DNA of 35,745 nt from Gammaproteobacteria bacterium RIFCSPLOWO2_12_47_11 (GCA_001801885.1 MGYU01000110.1:581-36325), one strand, 5' to 3'. Shown: positions 2,374 to 30,220, counted from the first letter of the stretch. A program made the numbers and translations. Notes: generated by a model not told the origin, from the sequence alone.

Positions 2374-3162
2374 TTATCCCTTGTGCAGGCCGAGCCTGAA
2401 CATTATGTTGTCATAATAGTGGTTCATCAGCCATGGAATTGATTTGATACTGTATGCATATGGAATGCCGCCCCTGCTTCCGGCAGCATCCAGACAATCA
2501 TTGCCATATATGCGCTGCAATAATTTTATATGCTGATTGGGAACGCTGACTTCGAAATCCTCAAATTTCCTTTTGACCAGCGGATAAACATCACTTTCTG
2601 CAAAACACTCATTAGGCCATTGATTCCCGACCTCATAGGTGCATTGTCCATTTTCATCAAGAGGATAGCATAAACGGAATACGCCATTATCATTATTCAC
2701 CATGACGATATCGACAAAGGGATATAGCGGGAAAATGTTATAGCCAAATTTGTATCCACCTCTGGCTTTACACAGCAGGTATTCATCATTTTCGTGTTTC
2801 TCCAGGACGTCAACCAGCTGATTGACATATCCAAGTTCTATATTGATATCGATATCATCGTCCCATGGAATAAAACCCTGGTGCCTGGCACATCCCAGCA
2901 AGGTGCCACAGGTAATCCAGTAAGGTATATTGTTATCAGCCAGTATTTTGTGCAAATGGGCTAGCAAATGGCCCATTTTGCATAAAACGTCCTCTTTGAG
3001 GTAGAAAACAGGCCGATGAATTTTGATTTCAGGAATTGTATGTAGTGTATTCCCAACTTTATAATTGTCCCCGGGCCTGACACGCCGGAATGTCACCGGA
3101 GTTGTGACAATCAGGAATAAAAAAATAATTAAAAAAGAAACCAGCAATATATACATAATCAT
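2374..3162 (-). CDS. LicD-family phosphotransferase
   Basis: LicD/fukutin-type enzymes transfer a phosphorylated group (phosphocholine in Haemophilus and pneumococcus, ribitol phosphate in fukutin relatives) from a CDP-activated donor to a glycan. The diagnostic block TLLGCARHQGFIPWDDDIDI sits at about residues 86-105 and contains the metal-binding DDDID. The first 20 or so residues form a single hydrophobic helix, so the enzyme is probably membrane-tethered. Length, 262 aa, is usual. No choline uptake or activation genes are in the window, so phosphocholine should not be assumed. It is the first gene of the minus-strand set and divergent, with a 37-bp gap, from the Frag1-like gene at 3200. 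Confidence 0.88.
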   Translation of the reverse strand: MIMYILLVSFLIIFLFLIVTTPVTFRRVRPGDNYKVGNTLHTIPEIKIHRPVFYLKEDVLCKMGHLLAHLHKILADNNIPYWITCGTLLGCARHQGFIPWDDDIDINIELGYVNQLVDVLEKHENDEYLLCKARGGYKFGYNIFPLYPFVDIVMVNNDNGVFRLCYPLDENGQCTYEVGNQWPNECFAESDVYPLVKRKFEDFEVSVPNQHIKLLQRIYGNDCLDAAGSRGGIPYAYSIKSIPWLMNHYYDNIMFRLGLHKG

Positions 3163-3199: not shown

Positions 3200-4003
3200 A
3201 TGGTGGACAAAATAACAGTTGGTAAATTTTCGAAGGGCATAATGAGTCCGGGGGCCTGGGCTTATTCACTACTGGTTGTTTTTATACTTGGTGTAAGCAC
3301 TGTTGTCGTTACAAGAATACTACTATATGTGCATCACCCAAAATACTTTCTGCATACCATCCCTTCAATCAGCAAGACAGCGGCGTTTGCGCCGGGAAGC
3401 TATATATTTACAGTGGGAATGACTGTTGTTTCTGCATGCATAGTTATTACATGGGTGCTTATTTTTAAACTGAACAACCACAGGATAAATCTTGCTTTAC
3501 TAGACCATGCATGGATTATGCTATGCAGGATTTTAAATTTCTCCGCCTGTGTTTGCGGTATTACTGCCGGTGTGTACCTTGCATTATTAAGCAATATTTC
3601 ACTGGAAGCCAATTCGGATTTCCATATCAATTATTCAAAATATTTCTTCTTTTTACAAACATTGTCATTCATTATAGATACTGTCTGCGTATCAATCACC
3701 AGACGTGCTTCGCCCGGGAAATATGTCTATGATTATGCTTTCCATACGAGAGCATTTATATGCATTATTGTTTTTCTGGATGCACTCTTTTTTCTATATC
3801 TTTTTGAAAACAGGGACAGCGGAATATTCAGGAGTTGGTACTTTGCCCAGCAACTATATATCATTGCCGAACATACTATTGCATTCCTTTCTTTCTCATA
3901 TTCTGCCGCCTATTTCCCGGAGGTATACAAATATTTTAATTCTTCCATAATATTCAGACATCACCATGAAATTAAAGATATCTCTTCCCGGCACCTGCAA
4001 TGA
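3200..4003 (+). CDS. Six-helix membrane protein, Frag1/PGAP2/DRAM-like
   Basis: The 267-residue protein has six predicted membrane helices at about residues 20-43, 64-90, 104-130, 147-167, 184-203 and 217-240. The first loop (LHTIPSISKTAAFAPGSYIF) resembles the P-x-I-S ... P-x-x-x-I-F loop of the Frag1/DRAM/Sfk1 family (PF10277), and the last helix carries the family's glutamate followed by an aromatic/acidic exit (AAYFPEVYK). In eukaryotes PGAP2 and Cwh43 of this family act in lipid remodelling of inositol-lipid (GPI) anchors. Its stop overlaps the start of the CDP-alcohol phosphatidyltransferase (ATGA at 4000), arguing for a shared role in lipid synthesis; that role is inference. An alternative start at ATG 3242 has a GAAGGG purine stretch before it. 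Confidence 0.6.
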   Translation: MVDKITVGKFSKGIMSPGAWAYSLLVVFILGVSTVVVTRILLYVHHPKYFLHTIPSISKTAAFAPGSYIFTVGMTVVSACIVITWVLIFKLNNHRINLALLDHAWIMLCRILNFSACVCGITAGVYLALLSNISLEANSDFHINYSKYFFFLQTLSFIIDTVCVSITRRASPGKYVYDYAFHTRAFICIIVFLDALFFLYLFENRDSGIFRSWYFAQQLYIIAEHTIAFLSFSYSAAYFPEVYKYFNSSIIFRHHHEIKDISSRHLQ

Positions 4004-4740
4004 GTAGCCGTTTTTTTCATACGATTTCCGAAACAAGGCGCCTGTACGTTGCCCATAAACTACAGGACGAATTATCCGGGGAGTGGGGAGCGATTGTTTT
4101 TTACCGATGGATTTCGTTTGTTATTAGCGCGATATTTTTGCAATGGGGTGTTACGGCCAATATGGTCACCTGGTCATCTATATTTCTTTGTTTGCTGCTT
4201 CCATTTGCCCTGCTGTTTAATCCGGAAGTTGCTTATATTTATCTGGCGATTGGCGCAATAATTATTGCGATTCTTGATTGCGTCGATGGTAATATTGCAA
4301 GAGTCACCAATACCACAAGTGCAAAAGGTCAATATATTGACTTTATCGCTGATATTTTCTACCGCACATCTCTTTACGCAACTCTGGGATTTATCGTTCA
4401 GGCCGCTTACAGCAACGATTTCTTCATGATCAGATTTGCAGGTTTTTTCTGTCTAATGGCTGCAATACTTGCTGTCACAGCCAGACTGTGCCGTATTTAT
4501 GTGGAAAAAAGATTTCCGGATGTCCGGCCTGCAGGATCAGGTAATTATCAAGGCAGTCCTGCCCATAATATAAAGTCATATATATTCTCGTTTGTCAGCG
4601 GGCTTGATCATTTACTGCCAATATTTATTCTGATTGCCGGAATATACGGATTGTTATTCTGGGTCATGATATGGATATTGTTCTACTCGCTGCTTGATTT
4701 TATATATACACAGTGGAACATAGTTCGGCGTCTTGCATGA
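4000..4740 (+). CDS. CDP-alcohol phosphatidyltransferase
   Basis: This integral membrane enzyme condenses a CDP-activated lipid or polyol with an alcohol, releasing CMP. The full family signature D-x2-D-G-x2-A-R-x8-G-x3-D-x3-D is present from D93 (DCVDGNIAR ... GQYIDFIAD). Hydrophobic helices fill the rest of the 246 residues. A long polar N-terminus of about 30 residues and the loop VEKRFPDVRPAGSGNYQGSP distinguish it from the shorter paralogue at 10004. It overlaps by 4 bp with both the Frag1-like gene upstream and the PimA-like glycosyltransferase downstream, so the three are probably translationally coupled. The alcohol substrate is unknown; inositol phosphate or another polyol phosphate fits the neighbourhood. 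Confidence 0.9.
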   Translation: MSSRFFHTISETRRLYVAHKLQDELSGEWGAIVFYRWISFVISAIFLQWGVTANMVTWSSIFLCLLLPFALLFNPEVAYIYLAIGAIIIAILDCVDGNIARVTNTTSAKGQYIDFIADIFYRTSLYATLGFIVQAAYSNDFFMIRFAGFFCLMAAILAVTARLCRIYVEKRFPDVRPAGSGNYQGSPAHNIKSYIFSFVSGLDHLLPIFILIAGIYGLLFWVMIWILFYSLLDFIYTQWNIVRRLA

Positions 4741-5867
4741 GGATCGCCATAGTCTGTCCTTATGATCTTGATACACCAGGTGGCGTACAAACGCATATAC
4801 TGGATTTGTCAAAAGAACTAAAAAATACCGGGCATCAGGTAAAAATAATCGCGCCACGATGTAATGAGGTTCAGGAAGACAATGAAGATGTCATTTTCCT
4901 GGGCAAAAGCAGGAAGATTGAATTTAACAAAACCATATTTGATATCAGCCTGGTTTATGGAAAGGACAGAAAAAAACTGTCTGCTGTACTCAGGGAAGGC
5001 AATTTTGACATCATTCATTACCACACGATATGGACACCATTTCTGCCAATGCAAATCCTGCTTGCTTCAAATGCAGCGAATGTAGCCACGTTTCATGATA
5101 CACCCCCTGACAATATCACCGGCATACTGACAAAAATTGTTTTCCGGATTCTGGGATTTTTTTTATTGAGACACCTTGATTCTGCCATTGCTGTTTCTGA
5201 AGCTCCGGCCGAACACTTGGTGAAAAAACCGGGCCACAAAATTCACATCCTGCCCCCATGTACTGATTTGACTGCATTCTCGCCGGATATCAAACCTCTC
5301 ATTGCCAGAAGTGACCAGGTTGTAACTATCCTGTTCCTTGGCCGATTTGAACATCGTAAAGGGATCGACATACTCATACAGGCATTTGGTAAACTGATGG
5401 ACCGGCAACATAATGTGCGTTTGCTGTTAGCCGGAAGTGGAAACGAGGCTCTTAATATTGACAAGAGTATAAAATCCATGGGCCTGTCCGGGGTCATCAC
5501 CCTGGGCCAAATTGAAGAAGCAGACAAGCCCGCATGTTATACAAGTTGTGACATTTTCTGCTCACCGGCGCTCTATGGTGAAAGTTTCGGGATTGTTCTG
5601 GTAGAAGCAATGGCCAGCGGCCGGCCGGTCGTTGCAGCTGCCAACAAAGGTTACAGTAGTCTGCTGCAATCAAAGGCAGATTTATGCCTGGCAAAACCAG
5701 GTAATGCAGAAGACCTGTATCAAAAACTCAGTAGCCTGGTGGTAAACAGGAATTTACGTGAAGAACTCGGGCAATGGGGTGTTGAGGAAGCAAAAAAATA
5801 CCAATGCAATAACCTAATCAATCAATATATTGATATTTACCAGGGCGCACTAGATTTCAAAAGATGA
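4737..5867 (+). CDS. GT4 glycosyltransferase, PimA-like
   Basis: A GT-B enzyme of 376 residues. Its N-terminus, MRIAIVCPYDLDTPGGVQTH, closely follows the pattern of mycobacterial PimA, which puts the first mannose on phosphatidyl-myo-inositol. Also shared are VATFH in the N-domain, the FLGRFEHRKGIDIL domain opener, and GESFGIVLVEAMASGRPVV at about residues 281-299, which carries the donor-site glutamates. I chose ATG 4737 because it overlaps the preceding stop (ATGA) and gives the family N-terminus; a longer frame from 4713 adds eight unlikely residues. Context (CDP-alcohol phosphatidyltransferases, inositol-phosphate synthase) makes an inositol phospholipid acceptor plausible, but GT4 acceptor specificity cannot be read from sequence. 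Confidence 0.83.
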   Translation: MRIAIVCPYDLDTPGGVQTHILDLSKELKNTGHQVKIIAPRCNEVQEDNEDVIFLGKSRKIEFNKTIFDISLVYGKDRKKLSAVLREGNFDIIHYHTIWTPFLPMQILLASNAANVATFHDTPPDNITGILTKIVFRILGFFLLRHLDSAIAVSEAPAEHLVKKPGHKIHILPPCTDLTAFSPDIKPLIARSDQVVTILFLGRFEHRKGIDILIQAFGKLMDRQHNVRLLLAGSGNEALNIDKSIKSMGLSGVITLGQIEEADKPACYTSCDIFCSPALYGESFGIVLVEAMASGRPVVAAANKGYSSLLQSKADLCLAKPGNAEDLYQKLSSLVVNRNLREELGQWGVEEAKKYQCNNLINQYIDIYQGALDFKR

Positions 5868-6809
5868 TTTTACCGGGTAATAATCATCAAGAAATTTCCT
5901 GGTCATATTCACTACATGCACATCCGGATTATTCCCAAAATTATCATTCAAACAATAAATTTTTGGCTGCATCAGTTTTATGATTGCCAGGCCGGTGGCT
6001 ATTAACAACCGGTTATTTTCAAGCCCGAGATAAAATGTCTTTTTATACGTACTGTGTAGTCCTTTCAACTTGCCCCTTCCCGTATATAACATGAAATACG
6101 GATATAAATATTCCGGGGCAATATTGAATTTTGATCTGAACCGGCTTTGCCTTGTGACTTCAAATGAATCGGGCCATTTTTCAATCATGTCACCCCAATT
6201 TTTCTTCTCCACCATCAACGGTACATGGTTAACCGAGGCCCTGTTTCGCCATCCATAGGATATATTTAGCAGGTGATTACAATACCCCAGCGCCATGTCC
6301 CAAGGCCCCTGTTTACTGTCATTTCTTTTTTCTGCCTTTGTTGTTTTTCTGATCCTAGGATAGATCAGCACCTTATTGTCAGTTGACGAAATAAAATCAT
6401 CTATTCCCGTGTGGTTGCCAAAAAGCATGTCATCCTCAATATACAGAAAATAATCTGACAGCCCCTTTATCTGGTGGACATATGACGCGATACAGAATGA
6501 ATTAAAGGTAGGTAATAATTCACTGTGTATAATTTCATCATGATGAATGACTTTTATCCTGTTGTTTCTATAACTGAACCATTCCGGGACCTGCGGTCTG
6601 CTGGTGAATATATATATATTACGAATCCACGGGACATACATTTCAACAGACCGCAAACTGTATTTCAGCAAATCAAGATTGTCCCTGGTCCTGTTAGGGT
6701 TGGTATCATGTTTACTATCGGCATATTGCTGCAGTTGGTTTCTATAACCTGGTAACTGATCATCGACCCATGTATAGACTATATCTATCGGGATACTGTC
6801 GACTTTCAT
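5850..6809 (-). CDS. Stealth-family sugar-phosphate transferase
   Basis: Stealth proteins transfer hexose-1-phosphate units to build phosphodiester-linked capsules and include the human GlcNAc-1-phosphotransferase. Conserved region 1 is visible as IDIVYTWVDD near the N-terminus; region 2 as RDNLDLLKYSLRSVEMYVPW...IYIFTSRPQVPEWF, then HHDEIIHSELLPTFNSFCI and YFLYIEDDMLFGN; and later regions toward the C-terminus (SVNHVPLMVEKKNW). I chose ATG 6809: AGAAGGGA lies 6-13 bases upstream of it, inside the extra six codons of the alternative ATG 6827. Its 3' end overlaps the convergent PimA-like gene by 18 bp. It is transcribed alone, divergent from the FGGY kinase. Target sugar unknown. Confidence 0.88.
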   Translation of the reverse strand: MKVDSIPIDIVYTWVDDQLPGYRNQLQQYADSKHDTNPNRTRDNLDLLKYSLRSVEMYVPWIRNIYIFTSRPQVPEWFSYRNNRIKVIHHDEIIHSELLPTFNSFCIASYVHQIKGLSDYFLYIEDDMLFGNHTGIDDFISSTDNKVLIYPRIRKTTKAEKRNDSKQGPWDMALGYCNHLLNISYGWRNRASVNHVPLMVEKKNWGDMIEKWPDSFEVTRQSRFRSKFNIAPEYLYPYFMLYTGRGKLKGLHSTYKKTFYLGLENNRLLIATGLAIIKLMQPKIYCLNDNFGNNPDVHVVNMTRKFLDDYYPVKSSFEI

Positions 6810-7017
6810 AGGATTTCCCTTCTGCATAATTTATACTACCCCCTGATAAATAAAATACGGAAATTCAGCATTAATCATCTCCAACATGCCTTGAATGCAG
6901 ATCATCAGGACATTATAAATAATATCCAGAACAAGTTGCCCCGTAATTTTGTCACTGACCTGAACATGCCCCGAATGATGAGCAATTATTTTCAATTCGT
7001 AAATTCCGGTACTTGTT

Positions 7018-8538
7018 ATGATAATTAGCTACGACTTTGGAACCTCGTCGGTCAAGGCGGCATTGTTTGATACTGCGGGGAATCTAGTCTCAAGCGCAAG
7101 CCAGAAATACCCTGTTCTTACCCCGAAACCGGGCTGGGTTGAACAGAACCCTGATGACTGGTGGAAAGCCATGTGCAGCATAACTGCATTTCTCGTCAGC
7201 TCGTCAGATACAAAGACTTCATCGATTTCCGCCCTTAATATATGTGCCCAAATGTGCGGCACATTGCCGGTAGATATTCATGGCAGACCGCTTACCAATT
7301 GTTTAACCTGGCTGGATACCCGGTCTGAAGACATTGCGGGCCGTATTACAAAAGGTACCATACGCGTGGGTGGTTATGGCTTGATCCCGCTGCTCCGCTG
7401 GTTATGGATTACCCATGGTGCACCTAATCTGTCAGGCAGGGATCCGACTTCAAAAATACTCTGGTTACGTGAACAGTTACCCGGCATATGGAAACAAATC
7501 CATAAAATTCTGGATGTTAAGGATTATCTGCTTTACCGTTGCTGCGGGCGCTTTACAACAACCCCTGACAGTGCCCACCTCACCTGGCTTATGAACAGTC
7601 AACCAGGTAGAAAATGCTGGTCGGCAACCTTGCTTTCACGGCTCGGTATTAATCCTGAACTGTTACCCGAGATTTGCAAGTCGACCGATATCATCGGTGA
7701 GTTACAGGCGAACGCAGCCGCTGAACTTGGCCTGAAAAAGGGCATTATTGTGATGGCAGGGGCCGGTGATGTCACAGCAAGTGCACTGGGTGCCGGTTCA
7801 GTCAAGATTTCCGACCTGCATTTGCACATCGGCACCAGTTCCTGGTCAGGTGCACACGTCAAGCGGCAGACAGTAGATGTGTACAATAATATCGGGTCGA
7901 TATGCTCCGCTGATCCGGACAATTATCTGCTGATCGCTGCACAACAATCAGGCGGATTATGTCTGGACTGGGCAAGCCGTCAACTGGGCCTGATGGATTC
8001 CGGCACACCGGACTATGTGGCAATCAATAGTATGGTGGAACATTCTCGAACCTGTGCCAGTAGTCCACTGTTTCTGCCCTGGTTGATGGGCGAGTGTGTG
8101 CCCAGGAAGATACCGGTTAACCGGGCAGGTTTTGTTAACCTTGGTCATCACCATAACAAACAGGATATATTCAGGGCCATACTGGAAGGTGTAGCCCTGA
8201 ATATACGCTGGGCATATATAAAAATGAATAAATTACTGGATAACCGGGGAGAAAATATCCGTTTTCTTGGTGGTGGCGCAAACAGTCAGGCATGGTGCCA
8301 GATTCTGGCTGATATTCTTCAAACACCTGTATTGCAGATGGATATGCCGCAACTGGGTGGCGCCAGAGGGGGGGCAATGCTGGCATCGGTCGCATTAGGC
8401 TGGCACAACAGTCTTGAAGAAGCCGTAAAAACAGCAAAAATCAGACAAACCTTCTATCCTGATCAGAACACAACAGACTATTACGATGAACGTTTTATGC
8501 GGTTCCTCATTCATTACCGGTTAAACAAGGGAGCGTAG
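7018..8538 (+). CDS. FGGY-family carbohydrate kinase, xylulokinase-like
   Basis: FGGY kinases use ATP to phosphorylate sugars or polyols in the cytoplasm. The N-terminal ATPase segment SYDFGTSSVKAALFD is at residues 4-18, followed by the WVEQNPDDWW motif and a xylulokinase-like CLTWLDTRS segment. The C-terminal signature GGGANSQAWCQILADIL is at about residues 418-434, and GGARGGAMLA follows. Length, 506 aa, fits the family. The closest functional type by eye is xylulokinase, but no pentose catabolic genes are nearby. It lies 159 bp before the inositol-3-phosphate synthase gene, on the same strand, so it may phosphorylate a polyol for the lipid or glycan made here. The substrate is unknown. 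Confidence 0.85.
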   Translation: MIISYDFGTSSVKAALFDTAGNLVSSASQKYPVLTPKPGWVEQNPDDWWKAMCSITAFLVSSSDTKTSSISALNICAQMCGTLPVDIHGRPLTNCLTWLDTRSEDIAGRITKGTIRVGGYGLIPLLRWLWITHGAPNLSGRDPTSKILWLREQLPGIWKQIHKILDVKDYLLYRCCGRFTTTPDSAHLTWLMNSQPGRKCWSATLLSRLGINPELLPEICKSTDIIGELQANAAAELGLKKGIIVMAGAGDVTASALGAGSVKISDLHLHIGTSSWSGAHVKRQTVDVYNNIGSICSADPDNYLLIAAQQSGGLCLDWASRQLGLMDSGTPDYVAINSMVEHSRTCASSPLFLPWLMGECVPRKIPVNRAGFVNLGHHHNKQDIFRAILEGVALNIRWAYIKMNKLLDNRGENIRFLGGGANSQAWCQILADILQTPVLQMDMPQLGGARGGAMLASVALGWHNSLEEAVKTAKIRQTFYPDQNTTDYYDERFMRFLIHYRLNKGA

Positions 8539-8697
8539 AAAACACCGGGGCATACCAGCAATACGTTTCAATATATTATGCCGGGTGAGCGATTATATTA
8601 AAATAATCCTTAATAGGCCTGATAATCAAAATACCTGTTTGATTCAATTATGTTATATCATACATTCCAAAATCCCTGACCCCATTATTAACCACCC

Positions 8698-10011
8698 ATG
8701 AACAAGCCTATACCCATTGATGATTATTCAACTGGCAACAGCAGACTTGCTGTTTTTATGCCCGGCATGGGTGCCGTATCAAGCACGTTGATAGCCGGCG
8801 TTGAAGCCGTAAAACGTGGTCTGGCCCTGCCTGTAGGTTCGTATTCGCAGATGGGCAAACTGAAAGTCCATAATTCTGTATCACAGGCCGTACAGGACAT
8901 TTTTCCACTGGCAAAACTTGACCATCTGGTATTTGCAAGCTGGGATATTTTTCCCGACAACTGTTATGAAAGCGCCACCAAAAACCATGTTCTTGACGCG
9001 CATCTGCTTGACCAGTTGCAGGAACCTCTTGGTTCAATCAGCCCGATGCCTGCAGTTTTTGATCAAAAATTCGTTCCTAGACTTCACCCCCTCATAATGA
9101 AAAAAGCCAGAACAAAAATGGAGTATGCTGAGTTACTTAGAGAGGATATCCGCAATTTCATGAATAAAAAAAATTGTACTCGTGGCGTGATGATTTGGTG
9201 TGCGTCAACGGAAATCTATAATCCGCTTATGGATGTGCATAAGGACAGGCAGGCTTTTGAACTGGGATTGAAAAACAATGATGCATCAATCTCGCCAACA
9301 CAAATTTATGCTTACGCTGCACTTTGTGAAAATATACCTTTCATCAATGGCTCACCCAATATCTCTATTGAAACGCCTGTCATTCAGCAAATGGCCAATG
9401 AAGCCGGGATCCCTGTCGCCGGTTCAGATTTTAAAACAGGACAAACCCTTATCAAGACCATACTTGCACCCGGCTTGCGTAAACGGCTGTTGGGTGTATC
9501 CGGCTGGTACAGTTCGAATATACTCGGGAATCGTGACGGTGAAGTACTGGATGATCCTGATGCATTTCGATCCAAGGAAATCACCAAAACCAGCGTCTTG
9601 AACAATATATTTTCCCCGGATGAATATCCTGATCTGTACCGGGACCTGCATCACATGGTAAAAATCCATTACTATCCTCCACGGGGTGATAACAAGGAAA
9701 GCTGGGATAATATTGATATATTCGGATGGCTGGGTTATCCGATGCAAATCAAGATTAATTTTCTGGCCAGGGATTCAATACTCGCAGCACCTGTTGCACT
9801 TGACCTGATATTATTTATGGATCTTGCTGCACGTATTAATTATTCAGGCATTCAGGACTGGCTGGGATTTTATTTCAAGTCTCCTCTTCCAAACAATGGT
9901 GGGAATTTCGAACATGATCTGAACGTCCAGTTCGAAAATCTTGAATCAACCCTGAAAAAAATTTATACAAGTATAAACCTTAAGGCCGGGAAAAAGCTGG
10001 TCAATGATTGA
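8698..10011 (+). CDS. Inositol-3-phosphate synthase (MIPS)
   Basis: Converts glucose 6-phosphate to 1L-myo-inositol 3-phosphate with bound NAD, the committed step to inositol lipids. The 437-residue protein has an NAD-binding glycine motif PGMGAVSSTLIAG at about residues 22-34, then VFASWDIFPDNCYE, the core KTGQTLIKTILAP, GNRDGEVLDDPD at about 278-289, and DSILAAPVALDL at about 359-370, all characteristic of MIPS. By eye it looks closer to Bacteroidetes and actinobacterial forms than to yeast Ino1, as I recall them. No ribosome binding site is evident before ATG 8698. The next gene overlaps by 8 bp, linking inositol phosphate directly to a phosphatidyltransferase. Confidence 0.92.
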   Translation: MNKPIPIDDYSTGNSRLAVFMPGMGAVSSTLIAGVEAVKRGLALPVGSYSQMGKLKVHNSVSQAVQDIFPLAKLDHLVFASWDIFPDNCYESATKNHVLDAHLLDQLQEPLGSISPMPAVFDQKFVPRLHPLIMKKARTKMEYAELLREDIRNFMNKKNCTRGVMIWCASTEIYNPLMDVHKDRQAFELGLKNNDASISPTQIYAYAALCENIPFINGSPNISIETPVIQQMANEAGIPVAGSDFKTGQTLIKTILAPGLRKRLLGVSGWYSSNILGNRDGEVLDDPDAFRSKEITKTSVLNNIFSPDEYPDLYRDLHHMVKIHYYPPRGDNKESWDNIDIFGWLGYPMQIKINFLARDSILAAPVALDLILFMDLAARINYSGIQDWLGFYFKSPLPNNGGNFEHDLNVQFENLESTLKKIYTSINLKAGKKLVND

Positions 10012-10618
10012 TGGTCATTTCAAGAGCAAGATAAATATATTCTGGGACAGTCTCGCGTCCTGTCTTGTTGCAGCAAAATTATCTCCAAACACGATTACCT
10101 GGCTTGGCCTGATTCTGGTTATTACCAGTTGTTTATTTTACCTGTTACATCATAACAGCCTTTTGTTCGGCCTGTTCCTTGTAATCAGCTTTTCATTTGA
10201 TGCCCTGGATGGCGCGGTTGCACGGATAACTAACAGTTCAAGCAAGTATGGAGGATATCTTGATGCAGTTGCTGATCGCTATCAGGAAGTGGCCATATAC
10301 CTGACGCTCGCATATGTCCATCAATACTGGATAGTTTGTTTTATTGCTATTACCGGCTCCCTCCTGGTCAGTTATAATAAAGCCAGGGTGGCAATAGAAA
10401 TAACAATTAATAATGAGAAATGGCCTGACCTCACAGAACGGTTTGAAAGAATTTTCCTGATCTGCACTGGCCTGATTCTCACCCCTTTTATCCACCTGCC
10501 AGACAGTTTGAATCAATCGTTTCTTTATTATGTTATATTAATAACCGGTGTCCTCAGCCATTTTACTGCCATTCAGAGATTCATTCGTGCGAGAGGAGTT
10601 TTGCTGGGAAAAAAATAA
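10004..10618 (+). CDS. CDP-alcohol phosphatidyltransferase, phosphatidylinositol-phosphate-synthase-like
   Basis: A 204-residue membrane enzyme with the signature D-x2-D-G-x2-A-R-x8-G-x3-D-x3-D from D66 to D91 (DALDGAVAR...GGYLDAVAD). Downstream, DLTERFERIFL recalls the R-x-E-R motif found in phosphatidylinositol-phosphate and archaetidylinositol-phosphate synthases, which couple CDP-diacylglycerol (or its ether analogue) to inositol 1-phosphate. The start overlaps the end of the inositol-3-phosphate synthase gene by 8 bp, so enzyme and substrate source are translationally linked. No obvious phosphatase is present for the second step (PI phosphate to PI). Assignment to the inositol branch is strong by context, though the lipid partner could be diacylglycerol or ceramide-type. 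Confidence 0.87.
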   Translation: MIDGHFKSKINIFWDSLASCLVAAKLSPNTITWLGLILVITSCLFYLLHHNSLLFGLFLVISFSFDALDGAVARITNSSSKYGGYLDAVADRYQEVAIYLTLAYVHQYWIVCFIAITGSLLVSYNKARVAIEITINNEKWPDLTERFERIFLICTGLILTPFIHLPDSLNQSFLYYVILITGVLSHFTAIQRFIRARGVLLGKK

Positions 10619-10645
10619 ATATTGCTTTTGATTCAGTGACCAGTC

Positions 10646-12307
10646 ATGACCCAGATACCATTTGATATCGTAAAATTTATATATAAAGAAGCCGAGGGTT
10701 CAAAGCTTGCCCTGTTTGGCATGTCGATGACATCAGGGATGACGCGTGGAATGTTATTGGCCACCATCAACGCATCTGCTGCAAGCACATTGTCCCAGAA
10801 CTCCGGACAGTTATATATTGTCCATTTTATTTTATTTTTGTGTCTCTACGTCGTCTCTAGTTATTATGTTAAAGTCAATTCTTCTTCCTTGATAGAAAAG
10901 GCCAGGCAGGATTTGACGAACAGATTATGTAATAAATTACTCCTGACTGAATTAAATTTCATTGAAAATTATGGAAGGAGTGAACTTTTTCAGAAACTAA
11001 GACTTGATGTGAACATGGTCTGTAACGTTGCAACCAGTATTTTGACTTCTACACAGTCTGCAGTATTGCTGTTCTTCTGCCTTGTATACATAGCATGGCT
11101 GGTACCCATCGCCCTGTTTTTCACGTTAACAGGGATTTGTCTCGGTTTTGCGATTTACCTTTTGCAAAACAGAAAAATTCTTGAAACAGTGAGACAAGCA
11201 CGAAAGGCAGCTGTTGAGTTTGGAGAACAACTGAGAGACCTTGTAAATGGTTTCAAGGAACTTAAAGTAAATAACTCAAAGCGCTCTGACTTTAACGATA
11301 GCCTCTTCATGGTCACTGGTAAATACAAAAAACTGAATACAACTGTTGCCAGACTGGAAACGATCAGCTTTCTTACAACACAGATTTTTATCTATTTGTT
11401 GATTGCAATTGTGGTGTTTCTGTTGCCAGTTTTCATCAGCCTGGATCAAACAATAATTTTCCAGTTTTTTGCTTCTATATTGTTTCTTATCGGGCCGCTT
11501 GAATCACTTATATCTTCTTACCAGAATATATCAAAGGCCAGTATATCCCTGGAGAATATTTATGGACTGGAAAGCGATATTGATAAATCATTATCTGAAC
11601 TGGTGGATGACAGCCACGTTAATGAAAGGATTACTTTTGACGACTTAAAACTCGAAAATATCTCGTTCAGGTATCATAACAACAATGATAAATTCATCAT
11701 TGGCCCGATCAATTTGACTGTTAAACGTGGTGAATTGTTATTCATTGCTGGTGGTAATGGCACAGGTAAAACGACATTATTAAAGATAATAACAGGCCTC
11801 TATCTTCCTTCCGAAGGTAAAATCCTGATAAATGGAAATATATTAAATCTTGAAAACTACCAATCGTACCGTGAAATGTTTTCCACTATCTTCACTGATT
11901 TCCATGTTTTCAATAAACTTTATGGCGTTACGGATTTAAATCAAAATAAACTCTCTGCCATGATGAGTGATCTCAAGCTGGATAATAAAACAAGTATTAA
12001 GGATGGCTCATTTAATTCATCAAATCTTTCCAGGGGACAGAAAAAACGGTTTGCATACATTATTTCATATCTGGACAACCGCCAGATATATGTTTTTGAT
12101 GAATTTGCAGCTGACCAGGACCCGGCATTCAAGAAATATTTCTATTACACTATCCTTCCATCCCTGAAAGCAGAGGGTAAAACTGTCATTGCTGTAACTC
12201 ATGACGATAATTATTTTGATGCCTGTGACCGCCTGATAAAAATGGATTACGGGAAGATTATTGAATGTGACGAATTTGATGAACCGGTTAGTTGTATTAA
12301 AAAGTAG
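10646..12307 (+). CDS. ABC exporter, SyrD/PvdE (cyclic peptide transporter) type
   Basis: A half-size exporter with a membrane domain fused to an ATPase. Residues 1-320 hold about six hydrophobic helices. The nucleotide-binding domain has Walker A GGNGTGKTT at about 369-377, signature LSRGQKKR at about 461, Walker B IYVFDEF at about 482, and the H-loop as AVTHDD. The family (SyrD, PvdE, YojI) includes peptide and siderophore exporters. No peptide synthetase or precursor peptide is nearby, and the gene follows the inositol-phosphate synthase and phosphatidyltransferase with a 27-bp gap, so lipid or glycolipid transfer across the inner membrane is a reasonable alternative. Its last 61 bp overlap the convergent CdsA-like gene. 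Confidence 0.85.
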   Translation: MTQIPFDIVKFIYKEAEGSKLALFGMSMTSGMTRGMLLATINASAASTLSQNSGQLYIVHFILFLCLYVVSSYYVKVNSSSLIEKARQDLTNRLCNKLLLTELNFIENYGRSELFQKLRLDVNMVCNVATSILTSTQSAVLLFFCLVYIAWLVPIALFFTLTGICLGFAIYLLQNRKILETVRQARKAAVEFGEQLRDLVNGFKELKVNNSKRSDFNDSLFMVTGKYKKLNTTVARLETISFLTTQIFIYLLIAIVVFLLPVFISLDQTIIFQFFASILFLIGPLESLISSYQNISKASISLENIYGLESDIDKSLSELVDDSHVNERITFDDLKLENISFRYHNNNDKFIIGPINLTVKRGELLFIAGGNGTGKTTLLKIITGLYLPSEGKILINGNILNLENYQSYREMFSTIFTDFHVFNKLYGVTDLNQNKLSAMMSDLKLDNKTSIKDGSFNSSNLSRGQKKRFAYIISYLDNRQIYVFDEFAADQDPAFKKYFYYTILPSLKAEGKTVIAVTHDDNYFDACDRLIKMDYGKIIECDEFDEPVSCIKK

Positions 12308-13182
12308 AAAGTAATGCTTGAAATCAGCAATGAATCGTAAATATCTATTATGCCTCCATGTCCTTTTATCAGTGTCATGAAATCCTTGGTTTCATAAATA
12401 CGCTTGTATGCAGAAAATACAAGGTCTCCCAGAATTGCGCTTATAATAATCAGGCCAATAATCATACTGGCTTCTGAAACCGTATAATTTAACACAAGAT
12501 GATTGTATACCAGCCCTGCCAGCATGGCTGTCATTACGCCCGCTATCATTCCTTCCCATGTTTTTTTTGGACTGATCCTGGGGAATAAACCGGTTTTTCC
12601 AACAAGTCTTCCAAAAATCATCGCAAAAGCATCGTTTGTTTCTGTTACGAGATAAAGAAATATGATTAACAGGAATCCATCATGCATCATGTTAATTTGC
12701 AGCAGGCTGGAAATGGACAATGCAATTATAAGCATCGGAAACAACGCGGCTAAAAATGTCTGGCATTTCTTCATAACCAGAATGAATAAAACCAGACTTA
12801 TAAAAAGAACGATGGATGACAGTAAATAACTAATTGCCTGTTCAGCCGTGGACAAATAAAATACTGTGATAATCAGCACTGAACTCAATAAAATACCTGT
12901 CGCTATAATATTAGTTCTATGCCTGTAGCCATGTATATGGGCTATTTCCACATGGGCACGAAGATTGAATAATAAAAGCACTATCATTAAAATTACTCCG
13001 CCATAATAAGCAGGAATTAATACCGCGGTCACAATAAGTATTTCCACACCATATAATCTCCATAACTCCGGCAATGTGTCCGGGTTGATATTTTTGATGT
13101 GTCTCGCTGAAAAAATAACCAGTGCGCCCACGATAAATAGCGACAGGATGAGAAAAACAGTTATTACGAGTTCGGGATACAA
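12247..13182 (-). CDS. Phosphatidate cytidylyltransferase (CdsA-like)
   Basis: Makes CDP-diacylglycerol from phosphatidate and CTP, the lipid donor for the CDP-alcohol phosphatidyltransferases encoded nearby. The protein is 311 residues, nearly all membrane helices. Near the end it shows SPKKTWEG and then the CdsA signature SAYKRIYETKDF...GHGGIIDIYDS. In the usual signature, HGG-x-x-D is followed by Arg; here it is Ile, and the Pro before GHGG is Lys, so the site deviates from the norm. The start appears to be TTG 13182, just inside an in-frame stop; no clear ribosome site is visible. Probably a specialised paralogue of the housekeeping cdsA, which usually lies in another locus. Confidence 0.82.
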   Translation of the reverse strand: MYPELVITVFLILSLFIVGALVIFSARHIKNINPDTLPELWRLYGVEILIVTAVLIPAYYGGVILMIVLLLFNLRAHVEIAHIHGYRHRTNIIATGILLSSVLIITVFYLSTAEQAISYLLSSIVLFISLVLFILVMKKCQTFLAALFPMLIIALSISSLLQINMMHDGFLLIIFLYLVTETNDAFAMIFGRLVGKTGLFPRISPKKTWEGMIAGVMTAMLAGLVYNHLVLNYTVSEASMIIGLIIISAILGDLVFSAYKRIYETKDFMTLIKGHGGIIDIYDSLLISSITFYFLIQLTGSSNSSHSIIFP

Positions 13183-13297
13183 GATATTGATATTTTTCTG
13201 GTGTTAAATGATTCTGTATTTATGTTATACAATAACTCCCGGAAATCATTGCCTTGCGCGGGCCCAATCAAATAAATCCGGGAAACATTGACACTGA

Positions 13298-14569
13298 TTG
13301 AACAACTTTCTTCTTATATCACCCAAATTCCCGCCGAGTAACGCTATCGGTTCAAAGCGTGCATTGAATATTGTACGTCATTTGCCTCGATATGGCTGGT
13401 ATCCGGTTGTACTTGCAGCGCCGGTATCACAGCAGGAATGTGATAAAAGTGTTATGAAATTATTACCCGAAAAAACTAATGTATCCTATCGATTTACTTC
13501 CGTATTTCAAAAACCACCTGGTGTAAAAAACAGGGAAAATAATAAAACTTCATTATTAAAAAAAATGGCCGCCAATGGACCATATTATACACCTTTTGAT
13601 CAATATCTCTCACAGGTCCCTGCAGCCATACGCGCCGGCAAACAACTGATAAGACAGTACAAGCCAAGGCTTATTCTGGTAAATGCCGATCCATGGTCTG
13701 GTTTCATAGTTGGAAACAGACTGTCCAAATGGGCGGACATCCCCTGGATTGCCGACCTGCGCGACCCATGGAGCATGCATGCTTTCAAAATGTCACTGCG
13801 GCCATGGATAATCAGGTTTCTTATCAATCATTTTGAGTCAGTATTCTTTCATAATGCCGCAAAGGTAATTCTGAATACCAGAATGTGTAGTATTGCATAC
13901 CAGGAAAAATACGGAGCAACCCTGGATAATGAACATTTTATATATATCAGAAATGCATTTGATCCGGAATGTTATGATGCACCTGATGATATTGGTGAAA
14001 AGAATAAATTCTCTCTCCATTATTTTGGCTCATTCCGCAATTACCAGGGCCCCGGCCATTTATTTGAATTATTCAGACAATTTATACAAAAATACAATTT
14101 AAACCCGGATGAGGCAGAGCTTGTATTGTACGGTGAACAACGTGAAGAAGATTTGCAGCATATACAAAACATGAATATCTCGACATATATCAGACTTCAT
14201 GAAGCTGTCAGCCTGAGAGATACGCTGTACTGTCTGCGCAATGCCTCAGTGCTGGTTCTGATCGAGGGGCCCTACAAAAGGTTGCAACTTCCGGCAAAAC
14301 TCTATGATTACCTGGCTGCCAGGCGGCCTATACTGGCATTATCAGACAATAATGAACTTACAGAAATTATTTATAAAACAGGATCTGGACTGGTGGCAAA
14401 TTATCATGATCTTGCTGATGCAATGAGGCAACTTGAAAAATTATATCTTGATAGAAAAAAGCCATGGCAATTTAATGAAACCGGGATTACAAACTATTCT
14501 GTGGATAAGCAGGCCGAGAAATTTTCTGAGTTATTCAATGCGGTTGTTTTAAACAGCCATAGTAAATAA
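13298..14569 (+). CDS. GT4-like glycosyltransferase
   Basis: A 423-residue protein with the N-terminal pattern of a GT4 subgroup: LLISPKFPPSNAIGSKRALN, then RHLPRYGWYPVVLAAP, then ADIPWIADLRDPW. The C-terminal half carries LQLPAKLYDYLAARRPILAL with the donor-site residues. The only plausible start is TTG 13298, since an in-frame TGA lies immediately before it. It is divergent from the CdsA-like gene with a 115-bp gap and convergent with the SDR gene. It could extend the head group of the inositol lipid or act on the surface polymer; sugar and acceptor are unknown. Confidence 0.82.
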   Translation: MNNFLLISPKFPPSNAIGSKRALNIVRHLPRYGWYPVVLAAPVSQQECDKSVMKLLPEKTNVSYRFTSVFQKPPGVKNRENNKTSLLKKMAANGPYYTPFDQYLSQVPAAIRAGKQLIRQYKPRLILVNADPWSGFIVGNRLSKWADIPWIADLRDPWSMHAFKMSLRPWIIRFLINHFESVFFHNAAKVILNTRMCSIAYQEKYGATLDNEHFIYIRNAFDPECYDAPDDIGEKNKFSLHYFGSFRNYQGPGHLFELFRQFIQKYNLNPDEAELVLYGEQREEDLQHIQNMNISTYIRLHEAVSLRDTLYCLRNASVLVLIEGPYKRLQLPAKLYDYLAARRPILALSDNNELTEIIYKTGSGLVANYHDLADAMRQLEKLYLDRKKPWQFNETGITNYSVDKQAEKFSELFNAVVLNSHSK

Positions 14570-14597
14570 CAATTTTCTTCATTATCCGGCCAGCCTG

Positions 14598-15413
14598 CTA
14601 CTTGACCGTTTTTGCAGATCTCTTTATCTGAAATTTAAACCAGGAGTTAAGCAACGGTCTTATAAGACTATGCAACCATCCCAACACAGTCATGGAATAT
14701 CCCGGTGTAATAATAAATTTATTCCGGCTGATACCCATGATGATGATTTTGGCAACATCATCAGCTGACATAACACCGCCGCTTTTTGTGATCAGTGTTG
14801 TTTCATGAGGTTTAAGCCTGCGTTCTTCAACAAGTTGCGGGGTTTCTGTATCCGGAGGGAAAACAACTGAAATCCTGATTCCATACGGTTCAGATTCGGC
14901 CTGCAATACTTCTGCAAAACCACGGACGGCAAATTTTGAAGGGCTATAACCCGAATAACCATAAATACCGATTAAACCGGCGCCGGAGGATATCATAACA
15001 ATATGGCCATTACCCTTGCTCCTCATCATGGGTTCTATTGCTTTAACAGCATATACTGTACCCAGATAATTTACGGCAATCATTTTCTCAAACATTTCCA
15101 CTGGCAGTGAATGAAAATATCCTGGAATAACTGTGCCGGCGCTGGTCACCAGTATCTGCGGGATATCCAATAAGTTTACTGATTGTTCGATTGCATTTTC
15201 TATTTGAAAACGGGAGGAAACATCAGCCGTAAACGTCTCTATTCTTTGTGACGGATCAGTGCTTTGCTTCAGGAGATACTGTTTTGCCCCAGCCAGACGG
15301 TCTTTGTTACGGGCAATGATGGATAGGTTCCAGCCCGCCTTGACATAATGCCTTGCTATTGCCAGGCCTATACCGCTTGAACCCCCTGTGATAATCACAT
15401 GACCACGGTTCAT
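14598..15413 (-). CDS. Short-chain dehydrogenase, 3-ketosphinganine-reductase-like (KDSR type)
   Basis: A 271-residue SDR with nucleotide motif TGGSSGIG at residues 9-16 and catalytic Tyr156/Lys160 (YSPSK), preceded by the serine in ISSG. The segment FPPDTETP at 185-192, followed by KPHET at 201-205, closely matches the pattern conserved in eukaryotic 3-ketodihydrosphingosine reductases (yeast Tsc10, human KDSR). A hydrophobic C-terminal stretch, TVLGWLHSLIRPLL, could bind membrane as in KDSR. It follows the serine-palmitoyltransferase-like gene by 11 bp on the same strand, so the pair would carry out the first two steps of sphingoid base synthesis. A generic fatty-acid ketoreductase role is the main alternative. 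Confidence 0.78.
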   Translation of the reverse strand: MNRGHVIITGGSSGIGLAIARHYVKAGWNLSIIARNKDRLAGAKQYLLKQSTDPSQRIETFTADVSSRFQIENAIEQSVNLLDIPQILVTSAGTVIPGYFHSLPVEMFEKMIAVNYLGTVYAVKAIEPMMRSKGNGHIVMISSGAGLIGIYGYSGYSPSKFAVRGFAEVLQAESEPYGIRISVVFPPDTETPQLVEERRLKPHETTLITKSGGVMSADDVAKIIIMGISRNKFIITPGYSMTVLGWLHSLIRPLLNSWFKFQIKRSAKTVK

Positions 15414-15424
15414 TTCAAGTCAAT

Positions 15425-16708
15425 TTAACCGAGCTCTGATAATTCCCTGGCAAGATTGGTTACAGTAAATTGAATTTCTTCTTTAGAGTGCTGTAAGGTT
15501 ATAAAAAAACGTAACTTCGCATCGTTATGCTTTACAGCAGGATAGATGACGGGCTGCACATGTATTCCCTGATCAAACAGGCGTTTGGACAATTGCATAC
15601 ACAATAAGTCATCGCCCACGAAAATCGGTATTATTGGTGCGCCATTATTCATTCCGGTATCAAGCCCGGCCTCATGTGCCAGTGACAGAAAAAACTCTGT
15701 ATTACTTCTCAGTTTTGAGACCCGCTCCGGTTCATTTTGAAGCACCTGAAATGCTGCCATTGCTGCTGCCGTATCAGGTGGGGACAAACCAACGCTGAAA
15801 ATGAAGCCAGGTGCAGAAAATTTCAGATATTCTATCAAGGGCCTGCTGCCGGCAATGAACCCGCCACAACTGGCAAATGATTTACTCAGGGATCCCATCC
15901 AAATATCAACATCATTGCGATCAATGGAAAAATACTCACCGATACCACGACCGTATTCGCCAATCACCCCTAATGAATGTGCTTCATCAACCATCAATAA
16001 TGTATTAAAGCGTTTCTTGATTTCGACCACTTTTCTTAGATCCGGAATATTGCCATCCATGCTGTAAGTACCTTCGATAACTATAATCACTCTTTGATAT
16101 TTTCCCCGGTGCCTGGACAGAAGCTGCTGAAGTTTGTCCCAGTCATTACGGGGGTAGGTCATGTGTTTGGCATTTGTCAGATTACAACCGGTAAGGATAC
16201 TGTTATGTGCCATATCATCATGAATGACCAGATCCTTGCGGCCAAACAGATGTCCCAGAGTAGTGACGTTTGTGTTATAGCCACTTACAAACACCAGGCA
16301 GTCTTCCACCCCCAGAAAATCGGCAATGACTTTTTCCAGTTCGACATGTAAGGAGATTTGCCCCGATACTATCCGGCTGGCCGAAACAGATGTGCCAAAT
16401 TTATCAATGGCTGCCTTGGCAGCACTAGTTACCTGTGGATGTCCTGACAAACCCAGATAATTATAACCTGAAAAATTGATATATTGACGGCCATTAATAA
16501 CAGCATTGTTTGAATTTGCTGCGTCGTTCGTCAGAAAGAAGGGTATGGAAATATTTCTCTTGAGCGCCTCTGCCTTCCTTCTTTGCAGGATAAGATAACC
16601 GGGATGGTTCTCAAATGAAGTGTAATCAGCAGTGGTAGGTTTTGCATCCGGCCATGACTTTTTTTCATGTGGTGAATTATGTAACTCTTCAGCACTATCG
16701 GCATCCAT
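15425..16708 (-). CDS. Alpha-oxoamine synthase, serine-palmitoyltransferase-like
   Basis: A PLP enzyme that condenses an acyl thioester with an amino acid, losing CO2. Visible are NFSGYNYLGLSGHPQV, SRIVSGQISLHVELE, the HDDMAHNSI segment, MVDEAHSLGVIGEYGRG, and the PLP lysine in GSLSKSFASCGG at about residue 275. The family includes serine palmitoyltransferase, BioF, Kbl, HemA and the CqsA/LqsA autoinducer synthases; the adjacent KDSR-like reductase favours sphingoid base synthesis. I chose ATG 16708 because AAGGGA precedes it; TTG 16759 would add 17 residues. The N-terminal 30-40 residues are polar and unlike BioF. CqsA/LqsA-type signal synthesis is the chief alternative. Confidence 0.78.
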   Translation of the reverse strand: MDADSAEELHNSPHEKKSWPDAKPTTADYTSFENHPGYLILQRRKAEALKRNISIPFFLTNDAANSNNAVINGRQYINFSGYNYLGLSGHPQVTSAAKAAIDKFGTSVSASRIVSGQISLHVELEKVIADFLGVEDCLVFVSGYNTNVTTLGHLFGRKDLVIHDDMAHNSILTGCNLTNAKHMTYPRNDWDKLQQLLSRHRGKYQRVIIVIEGTYSMDGNIPDLRKVVEIKKRFNTLLMVDEAHSLGVIGEYGRGIGEYFSIDRNDVDIWMGSLSKSFASCGGFIAGSRPLIEYLKFSAPGFIFSVGLSPPDTAAAMAAFQVLQNEPERVSKLRSNTEFFLSLAHEAGLDTGMNNGAPIIPIFVGDDLLCMQLSKRLFDQGIHVQPVIYPAVKHNDAKLRFFITLQHSKEEIQFTVTNLARELSELG

Positions 16709-17106
16709 ATCAGATATTCCCTTATAAAGAGTAAATTTTCGCGCGAGTTCTTCAGACAATGGTTGTCACCAAGTTATGGTTCCGGGCTAATTAATAGCGC
16801 CTGTAGTTAAAATTAAATTAATGTTTGATGGAAATTGTCAGTTGCGACAGCAATCAGTGTAATCATTTCCTGCTGACCCCCCATCTGCGAACTCAACGTG
16901 AAGCAAGTGCGGATACCGGTCAAATCTCCTTAATGTTATCCCGGTTTAGCCTGTTTTATTTATTTTGAGTCACCTGACCTAAACCAAAGTCTGAACATTA
17001 TATTTTTCTTGCAGCTGGAAAGGAAATTAATAATTTCCAAGTACAAAATATTATTACCGCCCCGTTCTCCGGTTTATAAATAATACAGATTGAACTTAAC
17101 TAATTA

Positions 17107-29084: not shown

Positions 29085-29336
29085 ATGGCTAAGCTCAAGC
29101 GCCCATCCGACCCCATCCAATTGGCGAAGCTCGTTGGTGATATTGCCACAGAACAAGTTAAGGATGAAGCTGTCAAACCACCTACTAGCGATGAAATACG
29201 GCGAGTTATGTCCGCGCTGGGGAAGATCGGCGGCCCGAAAGGCGGTAAAGCTAGAGCAAAGAATCTCTCAGCAAGAAAACGCTCCGAGATCGCCTGCAAG
29301 GCTGCTGCGGCTAGATGGAAAAAGAACGAGAAATAA
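29085..29336 (+). CDS. Small basic protein with GGK-repeat motif (IS cargo)
   Basis: An 83-residue protein whose second half, GGPKGGKARAKNLSARKR followed by SEIACKAAAARW, has the GGK-A-R-A...LSA-x-x-R...AAAARW pattern that I recall from small basic proteins of plasmids and mobile elements. No enzymatic motif. It is the first gene of the element, followed by the protease gene with a 2-bp gap, so both are probably co-transcribed from the left-end promoter. Its basic character would allow nucleic-acid binding, and it is one candidate for the regulator acting on the two operators; this is inference. Confidence 0.68.
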   Translation: MAKLKRPSDPIQLAKLVGDIATEQVKDEAVKPPTSDEIRRVMSALGKIGGPKGGKARAKNLSARKRSEIACKAAAARWKKNEK

Positions 29337-29338
29337 TT

Positions 29339-30220
29339 ATGGGGCAACCAGTCTTCGCAAAAGTATGGGGTGAAACTCAGCAACTACATCCTACACGGAA
29401 AGAATTGTTTTTGAAATTGGAAAGTTTGTTACAGTTGCCCGTGATTACTTATTTTACAAGTTTTAGATATCCAGTGTCTGTGTCAGATGATGATATGGAT
29501 ATGCTTATGGCTATCCTACAAGAAACTGACCTTTCAAGGGGTCTGGCGCTTTTAATTAGTTCTCCAGGAGGAGACGGATTGGCGGCAGAGCGCATACTGA
29601 ACGCATGTCGCACATGTTCTAATACTGGGGATTACATTGCTATAGTGGCTGGAAAGGCTAAATCCGCTGCCACAATGATCTGTTTCGGCGCAAGTAAGAT
29701 CATGATGGGGCCATCTTCAGAACTAGGCCCAGTTGATCCGCAGATAATTCGATCAGAAGATGGTAATACAAAACGCTTCTCTGTTTTCAATTACATTAAT
29801 AGCTACGAAAAGCTATTTAATCGAGCCGTCAAGGTAAAAGGAAACTTAGAACCATTTCTTCAGCAATTAGCACGCTATGATGAACGGGAAATAGAGGAAT
29901 TGCGTTCAGCGGCGTCCTTGTCGGAAGACATTTCTGTGAGGGCACTTATGACAGGCATGCTTAAGGGAAAAACAAAGACCAAGATTAAGAAAAATATTGA
30001 GGTTTTTTTGAACCCTTCAGCCGGGACTAAGTCTCATGGACGTCCGATTTATTTCGATGAAGCATCAAAATGTGGATTGAAAATTGAGAAAATGGATGTA
30101 AAATCAGAAATATGGAATGTTGCATATGAACTATATGTACGCACAGATCAATATGTTTCTACTAAAGTAACGAAATGTATAGAAAGTAAGGAACATTCTT
30201 TTTCCGCCGCAATCACATAA
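29339..30220 (+). CDS. SDH-family Clp-fold serine protease (IS cargo)
   Basis: A 293-residue ClpP/SppA-fold protein. Counting from ATG 29339, the oxyanion-type segment SSPGGDG is at 74-80, the nucleophile Ser109 in GKAKSAATMI, the aspartate D133 in SELGPVDPQ, and a histidine H233 in KSHGRPI. This Ser-Asp-His set is the hallmark of the SDH_sah-type family (PF01972). No signal peptide is seen, so it is likely cytosolic. I chose ATG 29339, 2 bp after the previous stop; an earlier start at 29315 overlaps that gene. Substrate unknown. A protease as IS cargo is unexpected. Confidence 0.8.
   Translation: MGQPVFAKVWGETQQLHPTRKELFLKLESLLQLPVITYFTSFRYPVSVSDDDMDMLMAILQETDLSRGLALLISSPGGDGLAAERILNACRTCSNTGDYIAIVAGKAKSAATMICFGASKIMMGPSSELGPVDPQIIRSEDGNTKRFSVFNYINSYEKLFNRAVKVKGNLEPFLQQLARYDEREIEELRSAASLSEDISVRALMTGMLKGKTKTKIKKNIEVFLNPSAGTKSHGRPIYFDEASKCGLKIEKMDVKSEIWNVAYELYVRTDQYVSTKVTKCIESKEHSFSAAIT

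Follow-up and report, generated by a model that had tools for sequence, protein, structure and literature searches.

A gene island in a gammaproteobacterium with predicted enzymes for a glycosylated phosphatidylinositol

Among bacteria, inositol lipids are uncommon, and the phosphatidylinositol mannosides (PIMs) are textbook lipids of actinobacteria. To our knowledge, the route that makes phosphatidylinositol (PI) and attaches a sugar to it has been described in mycobacteria, archaea and Bacteroidetes but not in Gammaproteobacteria. Here, an island of about 16 kb from Gammaproteobacteria bacterium RIFCSPLOWO2_12_47_11 was compared with described systems, namely the mycobacterial/actinobacterial PIM pathway (PgsA1, PatA, PimA), the BT_1522-1526 cluster of Bacteroides thetaiotaomicron (PMC9246714), the SgaA-SgaB-SgaC system of Pseudomonas fluorescens MYb115 (PMC12134224) and the Caulobacter-type ceramide genes aasR-cerR-acpR-spt-cerS, which occur also in some gammaproteobacteria (PMC11324152). 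The stretch analysed, hereafter the window, comprises 35,745 nucleotides (MGYU01000110.1:581-36325) of a draft genome (GCA_001801885.1) of 2.35 Mb in 115 contigs that is 91.8% complete. From its sequence, the island probably makes a PI-based glycolipid, with a glycosylated diacyl PI as the best reading, because it encodes a myo-inositol-3-phosphate synthase (MIPS) of the BT_1526 type, a phosphatidylinositol-phosphate (PIP) synthase acceptor pocket and a PimA-like glycosyltransferase of family GT4, and because the genome holds a pgpA gene.

Inositol-lipid enzymes and their described counterparts

The MIPS gene (positions 8698-10011 of the window, plus strand; NAD_binding_5, PF07994, and Inos-1-P_synth, PF01658) has as its best PDB match 7nwr, which we take to be the MIPS BT_1526 of B. 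thetaiotaomicron, with 491 bits over residues 13-422, the next match, another MIPS, reaching 174 bits. The B. finegoldii MIPS is 51% identical to the island enzyme. The gene overlaps by 8 bp the next one (10004-10618, plus strand), which encodes a CDP-OH_P_transf protein of 204 aa assigned through the NCBIfam archaetidylinositol-phosphate synthase model and its pocket residues. This protein carries the CDP-alcohol transferase signature DxxDGxxAR...GxxxDxxxD, DALDGAVARITNSSSKYGGYLDAVAD, and keeps all seven inositol-phosphate pocket residues (R94, S132, K135, R137, R152, R155 and R195 in the numbering of the M. tuberculosis PIP synthase, MtPIPS), as checked by alignment to the Tsukamurella and Nonomuraea PIP synthases with the MtPIPS numbering transferred by eye. 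The pocket residues of the M. tuberculosis enzyme were taken from PMC4634129 and PMC6506517, and the structure of BT_1526 has been reported in PMC9246714. The phosphatidylglycerophosphate and phosphatidylserine models of NCBIfam gave about 31 bits, well under its inositol models. Judged by its residues, then, the product is a predicted PIP synthase, but not a member of a curated equivalog. As a separate observation, PIP-synthase-like proteins accompany MIPS at the myxococcal and delta-proteobacterial loci L020, L022, L023 and L037, and in those of L020, L022 and L037, the three that were aligned, K135 and R137 are replaced.

A second CDP-alcohol phosphotransferase gene (4000-4740, plus strand; PF01066) overlaps the genes on either side. 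Its product has an intact catalytic signature and keeps none of the inositol-phosphate pocket residues in the alignment, so that by these residues it is no PIP synthase. Its best PDB match, to CEPT1, is weak, and a search of 369 genomes of the class (hereafter the class genomes) gave no relative at E 1e-12.

The third component of the predicted route is the PimA-like GT4 glycosyltransferase (4713-5867, plus strand; Pfam GT4), a candidate PI mannosyl- or hexosyltransferase. In the PDB search, PimA (4n9w/2gej) scored 163.7 bits over residues 7-351, a margin of 112 bits over the next kind of protein (51.7 bits). The enzyme keeps H118, R196, K202 and E274, presumably the catalytic positions of PimA, and the blocks VATFH, FLGR, RKG and GESFGIVLVEA were aligned. 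Its two best matches among 72,556 records of a plasmid collection, which includes some mis-filed chromosomes, adjoin PIP-synthase genes. In Tsukamurella, the order is PIP synthase, PIM acyltransferase and glycosyltransferase, so that the match lies two places after the PIP synthase, and in Nonomuraea the match lies about 1 kb from it.

The island thus resembles the PIM pathway in the acceptor pocket of its PIP synthase, in its PimA-like enzyme and in a CDP-alcohol transferase gene placed shortly before the glycosyltransferase, as the actinobacterial PIP synthase precedes a PimA-like glycosyltransferase. However, the transferase next to the island glycosyltransferase is not the PIP synthase, no PatA-like acyltransferase was recognised in the island, the MIPS is of Bacteroides rather than mycobacterial type, and the host is a Gram-negative gammaproteobacterium. 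With BT_1522-1526, the island shares the type of MIPS, its association with a PIP-synthase-type transferase and the presence of a PgpA-family phosphatase in the genome. It differs from that cluster in a PIP synthase scoring far under the BT1523 model, in a genome lacking any AUR1-like PAP2_3 match, in a pgpA gene located outside the island and in having the PimA-like glycosyltransferase.

Family membership, the intact catalytic and acceptor residues of the PIP synthase and the PimA-type similarity are read from the sequence; we infer the reactions, the identity of the sugar and of the phosphatase, decoration and export, and any link of a sphingoid base to the inositol lipid. MIPS would convert glucose-6-phosphate to inositol-3-phosphate, and the 204-aa transferase would combine this with CDP-diacylglycerol into PIP. 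Dephosphorylation of PIP, perhaps by the genome's PgpA, would then yield PI, onto the inositol of which the PimA-like enzyme would place a first hexose, probably mannose. The head group may be extended or decorated by the LicD protein, the Stealth protein and the other glycosyltransferases, and the ABC protein may export the lipid.

Supply of CDP-diacylglycerol is not in doubt, since the genome holds three genes of the CdsA family, one of them in the housekeeping order uppS-cdsA-dxr-rseP (read by eye), and the CdsA paralogue named in the original prediction is the third copy (12247-13182, minus strand; CTP_transf_1, PF01148, E 1e-42). Its motif reads HGGIIDIYD, whereas the other two copies have HGGVLDR, a deviation that may set it apart from an ordinary CdsA. 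Elsewhere in the genome, another CDP-alcohol transferase clusters with a CdsA protein and a PlsC-type acyltransferase (L106:8298-10536), in an arrangement that resembles ynbABC of enterobacteria. The original prediction was also right that the window holds neither a ceramide synthase nor a PIP phosphatase; one pgpA gene, however, lies elsewhere in the genome. In Bacteroides, PIP is dephosphorylated by a PgpA-family protein (PMC9246714), and the genome's PgpA, or other phosphatases, could turn PIP into PI here.

Glycan genes and the weighing of the glycosylated PI

The left part of the island carries, all on the minus strand, a GT4 glycosyltransferase at its very end (294-1487; PF00534), a GT92-type glycosyltransferase (1533-2345; PF01697, E 2e-28) and a LicD-family protein (2374-3162; PF04991, E 6e-23), which may transfer phospho-groups to a surface glycan. 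Further right follow a Stealth-type phosphotransferase (5850-6827, minus strand; Pfam Stealth CR2, CR3 and CR4), an FGGY-family, xylulokinase-like sugar kinase below the xylulokinase equivalog cut-off (7018-8538, plus strand), an ABC exporter with fused permease and ATPase from the cyclic-peptide export family, possibly a lipid exporter (10646-12307, plus strand; TIGR01194, 345 bits for a cut-off of 286), and a divergent GT4 glycosyltransferase (13298-14569, plus strand; PF13692). None of these seven genes had been listed in the original prediction.

Several points weigh against a glycosylated PI as the product. The PIP synthase remains under the NCBIfam cut-offs for archaetidylinositol-phosphate synthase (137.8 bits, cut-off 180), PIP synthase (88.1, cut-off 170) and the BT1523 model (78.9, cut-off 350), and the island has no clear gene for a PIP phosphatase. 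The glycosyltransferase is only about 30% identical to PimA, and in GT4 enzymes specificity shifts readily. No second genome with this cluster turned up. Finally, with so many polysaccharide-type genes, inositol might instead be used in a capsule. Inositol phosphate would in that case decorate a surface polysaccharide or lipopolysaccharide, the PI-type enzymes acting on capsule precursors only, which we judge quite unlikely. The cluster is indeed surrounded by the LicD, Stealth, GT92 and several GT4 genes, and loss of MIPS alters capsule expression in B. thetaiotaomicron (PMC9246714), but the acceptor pocket of the PIP synthase and the PimA-type glycosyltransferase indicate a lipid.

Sphingoid-base genes and the question of a ceramide backbone

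Beside the predicted enzymes for the glycosylated PI, the right end of the island encodes an alpha-oxoamine synthase (AOS) of the aminotransferase I/II fold (15425-16759, minus strand). Its best PDB match is the Sphingobacterium serine palmitoyltransferase (253 bits), and the alignment reveals the pyridoxal-phosphate lysine and a DEAHS motif. The AOS shares 63% identity with a counterpart in another genus of its family and 45-52% with others, and these identities, with the alignment, place it in the group of SgaB, a serine palmitoyltransferase associated with a polyketide synthase (PKS). In six genomes of the family, the AOS gene neighbours a large gene encoding up to 2,558 aa, and the only annotated neighbour of this kind is a type I PKS comprising KS, AT, DH, ER, KR and ACP domains. 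Likewise, its best matches in the plasmid collection lie in or beside PKS genes of Pseudomonas, Paraburkholderia, Shinella and Planktothrix. The same PKS-AOS arrangement is that of PfSgaAB, for whose SgaB the condensation of L-serine with acyl-CoA has been demonstrated (PMC12134224). Two related loci were noted besides. Another gammaproteobacterium (L066:6576-11904) has the order GT2-AOS-GNAT-SDR-LptF/G with an AOS of the same type, a possible compact locus for sphingolipid synthesis and transport. On plasmid pII of Paraburkholderia dioscoreae (L079:4908-7902), a PKS, an LpxC-annotated deacetylase, an AOS and a GNAT stand in a row, possibly a PKS-derived pathway to an N-acylated sphingoid base.

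The gene next to the AOS (14598-15413, minus strand) encodes a short-chain dehydrogenase/reductase (SDR) predicted to be a 3-ketosphinganine reductase (SgaC/KDSR-like). Its best PDB match is TSC10 at 85.8 bits versus 77.2 for the next, a thin margin, and its best NCBIfam score is 148 for a cut-off of 215. The Shinella plasmid has the three genes in the order PKS-AOS-SDR, and the Shinella SDR is the closest to the island SDR among those compared (38% identity, next 28%). No PKS partner of the SgaA kind was found in the window or recognised in the 91.8% complete genome. The genome gave three ketosynthase matches, including a short, weak one of 39 residues. The other two were rejected as partners, both being housekeeping-type: FabF sits at a contig end in a fab cluster, and the FabB-type enzyme beside a FabA-type gene. 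The acyl donor, if the pair works, would thus probably be ordinary acyl-ACP or acyl-CoA, and AOS and SDR would probably convert serine and an acyl thioester supplied by normal fatty acid synthesis into a sphinganine-type base.

The island is therefore like SgaA-SgaB-SgaC in an AOS most similar to PKS-associated ones and in its pairing with an SDR predicted to be of the KDSR kind, and unlike it in having no PKS beside the AOS and, in the genome, only housekeeping-type ketosynthases recognised. It also has a serine-palmitoyltransferase-like enzyme and a reductase in common with the Caulobacter-type ceramide genes, but no acyl carrier protein, acyl-ACP ligase or N-acyltransferase gene lies beside the AOS, and the reductase is a predicted KDSR-type SDR. 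The serine-palmitoyltransferase-like and KDSR-like enzymes named in the original prediction are present, the kin of the AOS being the PKS-associated SgaB group. As far as similarity can tell, AOS and SDR are better described as an SgaB/SgaC-type pair without a PKS than as a Bacteroidetes sphingolipid set.

Inositol-phosphate ceramide requires an N-acyltransferase and an inositol-phosphate ceramide synthase. The 91.8% complete genome gave no match to PAP2_3, the family of AUR1- and BT_1522-like synthases, in a search that was positive in 11 of 14 control genomes. Nor did a search find a homologue of the L066 GNAT, a proxy for the N-acyltransferase whose own role is a guess. An inositol-phosphate ceramide is hence unsupported by known enzymes, and of the lipid originally predicted the glycosylated inositol phospholipid is well supported by sequence, through the MIPS, the PIP synthase pocket and the PimA-like glycosyltransferase, while the possible ceramide backbone is not.

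The suggestion of a glycosylphosphatidylinositol (GPI)-like lipid goes back to a membrane protein of the Frag1/DRAM/Sfk1 family, which includes PGAP2 and the N-terminal part of Cwh43 (3200-4003, plus strand; PF10277, 54.7 bits for a cut-off of 30.3). This protein, a loose family match, is the sole hint of a remodelling step. The family exceeds the cut-off in 7 of the 369 class genomes, and no CDP-alcohol transferase motif occurs within 3.6 kb around the other Frag1 genes of the class. Single-sequence structure models were poor for both the Frag1 protein (pLDDT 49.4) and the second CDP-alcohol transferase (pLDDT 60.5). Yeast depends on Cwh43, whose N-terminal portion is the counterpart of PGAP2, to introduce ceramide into GPI (PMC7125958). 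By this analogy, and since AOS, SDR, Frag1 and the PI genes share one island and a PI-ceramide is known in Bacteroides (PMC9246714), it could be argued that sphinganine from AOS and SDR is N-acylated and that the resulting ceramide receives phosphoinositol, or a glycoside of it, through Frag1 or the second CDP-alcohol transferase. We regard such an inositol-phosphate ceramide or GPI-like lipid as unlikely: besides the lack of PAP2_3 and GNAT homologues, PGAP2 is not a proven enzyme and the AOS relatives adjoin PKS genes, not inositol genes. Very improbable is the fullest version, a gammaproteobacterial GPI-like glycolipid from genes of differing origin, in which a glycosyl-PI would have its diacylglycerol swapped for a sphingoid base or ceramide by the Frag1 protein, be decorated by LicD and Stealth and be exported to the surface.

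Setting, origin and significance of the island

All enzymes named in the original prediction are present in the sequence, each named family exceeding its curated Pfam cut-off with E-values of 1e-10 to 1e-80, so that chance is excluded for the family matches. The genes of its interval (3200-16708, 13.5 kb) were confirmed, but the island is larger, running from the GT4 gene at about 294 to the end of the AOS gene at 16759. It is flanked by cysE (contig 24-707, left of the window, recognised by eye from the translation) and by iscR (17303), after which come suf genes; the remainder of the window carries common gammaproteobacterial housekeeping genes (ndk, rlmN, pilW, rodZ, hisS, bamB, der). Tight gene overlaps at 3200-5867 and 8698-10618 suggest operons, and promoter-like sites did not exceed chance level. 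The GC content is 41.6% over 3200-16759 versus 47-49% in most other genome stretches examined, and it is also low around pgpA (44.9%) and a second cdsA (41.3%). A chimeric assembly is unlikely, because iscR and AOS are adjacent in another genus too and because the island and both its neighbours, cysE and iscR, lie on one contig. At the left end of that contig, a short run of N inside cysE marks a scaffold gap. Further right, the order hisS-yfgM-bamB-der is broken by a DDE transposase-like gene (30546-31391; IS240/IS1-type Pfam matches) and by a gene for a ClpP-like, SDH-type protease (29315-30220).

A MIPS of this close type occurs in 3 of the 369 class genomes, namely the present one and two that belong to a different family and have no CDP-alcohol transferase motif nearby, and in none of 36 family relatives. 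Among named genomes, close MIPS were found in Dadabacteria, in Myxococcota and other delta lineages, in Acidobacteriota and in Acidimicrobiia. Around the MIPS of 28 named relatives, no other genes of the window were detected beyond a PIP-synthase-like gene (five loci) and weak SDR matches (two). In the MIPS tree, the island enzyme sits on a long branch apart from other gammaproteobacterial MIPS, and the donor could not be placed. This patchy distribution and the tree make a lateral acquisition of the island likely.

The two arms of the island may have separate histories. We give even chances to an old AOS locus beside iscR having become the neighbour of a separately acquired inositol-glycan island, with no joint product, a scenario compatible with the inositol half of the glycosylated PI reading. 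It accords with the absence of a close MIPS from the family relatives and with the other genus of the family that keeps iscR and AOS side by side (AOS 64% and IscR 71% identical); however, the contig there ends right after the AOS, so that gene order is visible only up to that gene.

The combination of these known enzyme classes in a gammaproteobacterial host was not found in the literature searched. If the glycosylated PI reading is true, the island, through its MIPS, its PIP synthase and its PimA-like enzyme, would extend this class of lipids to a new group. It would also offer a case in which a polyketide-linked type of enzyme pair for sphingoid bases works without a PKS.

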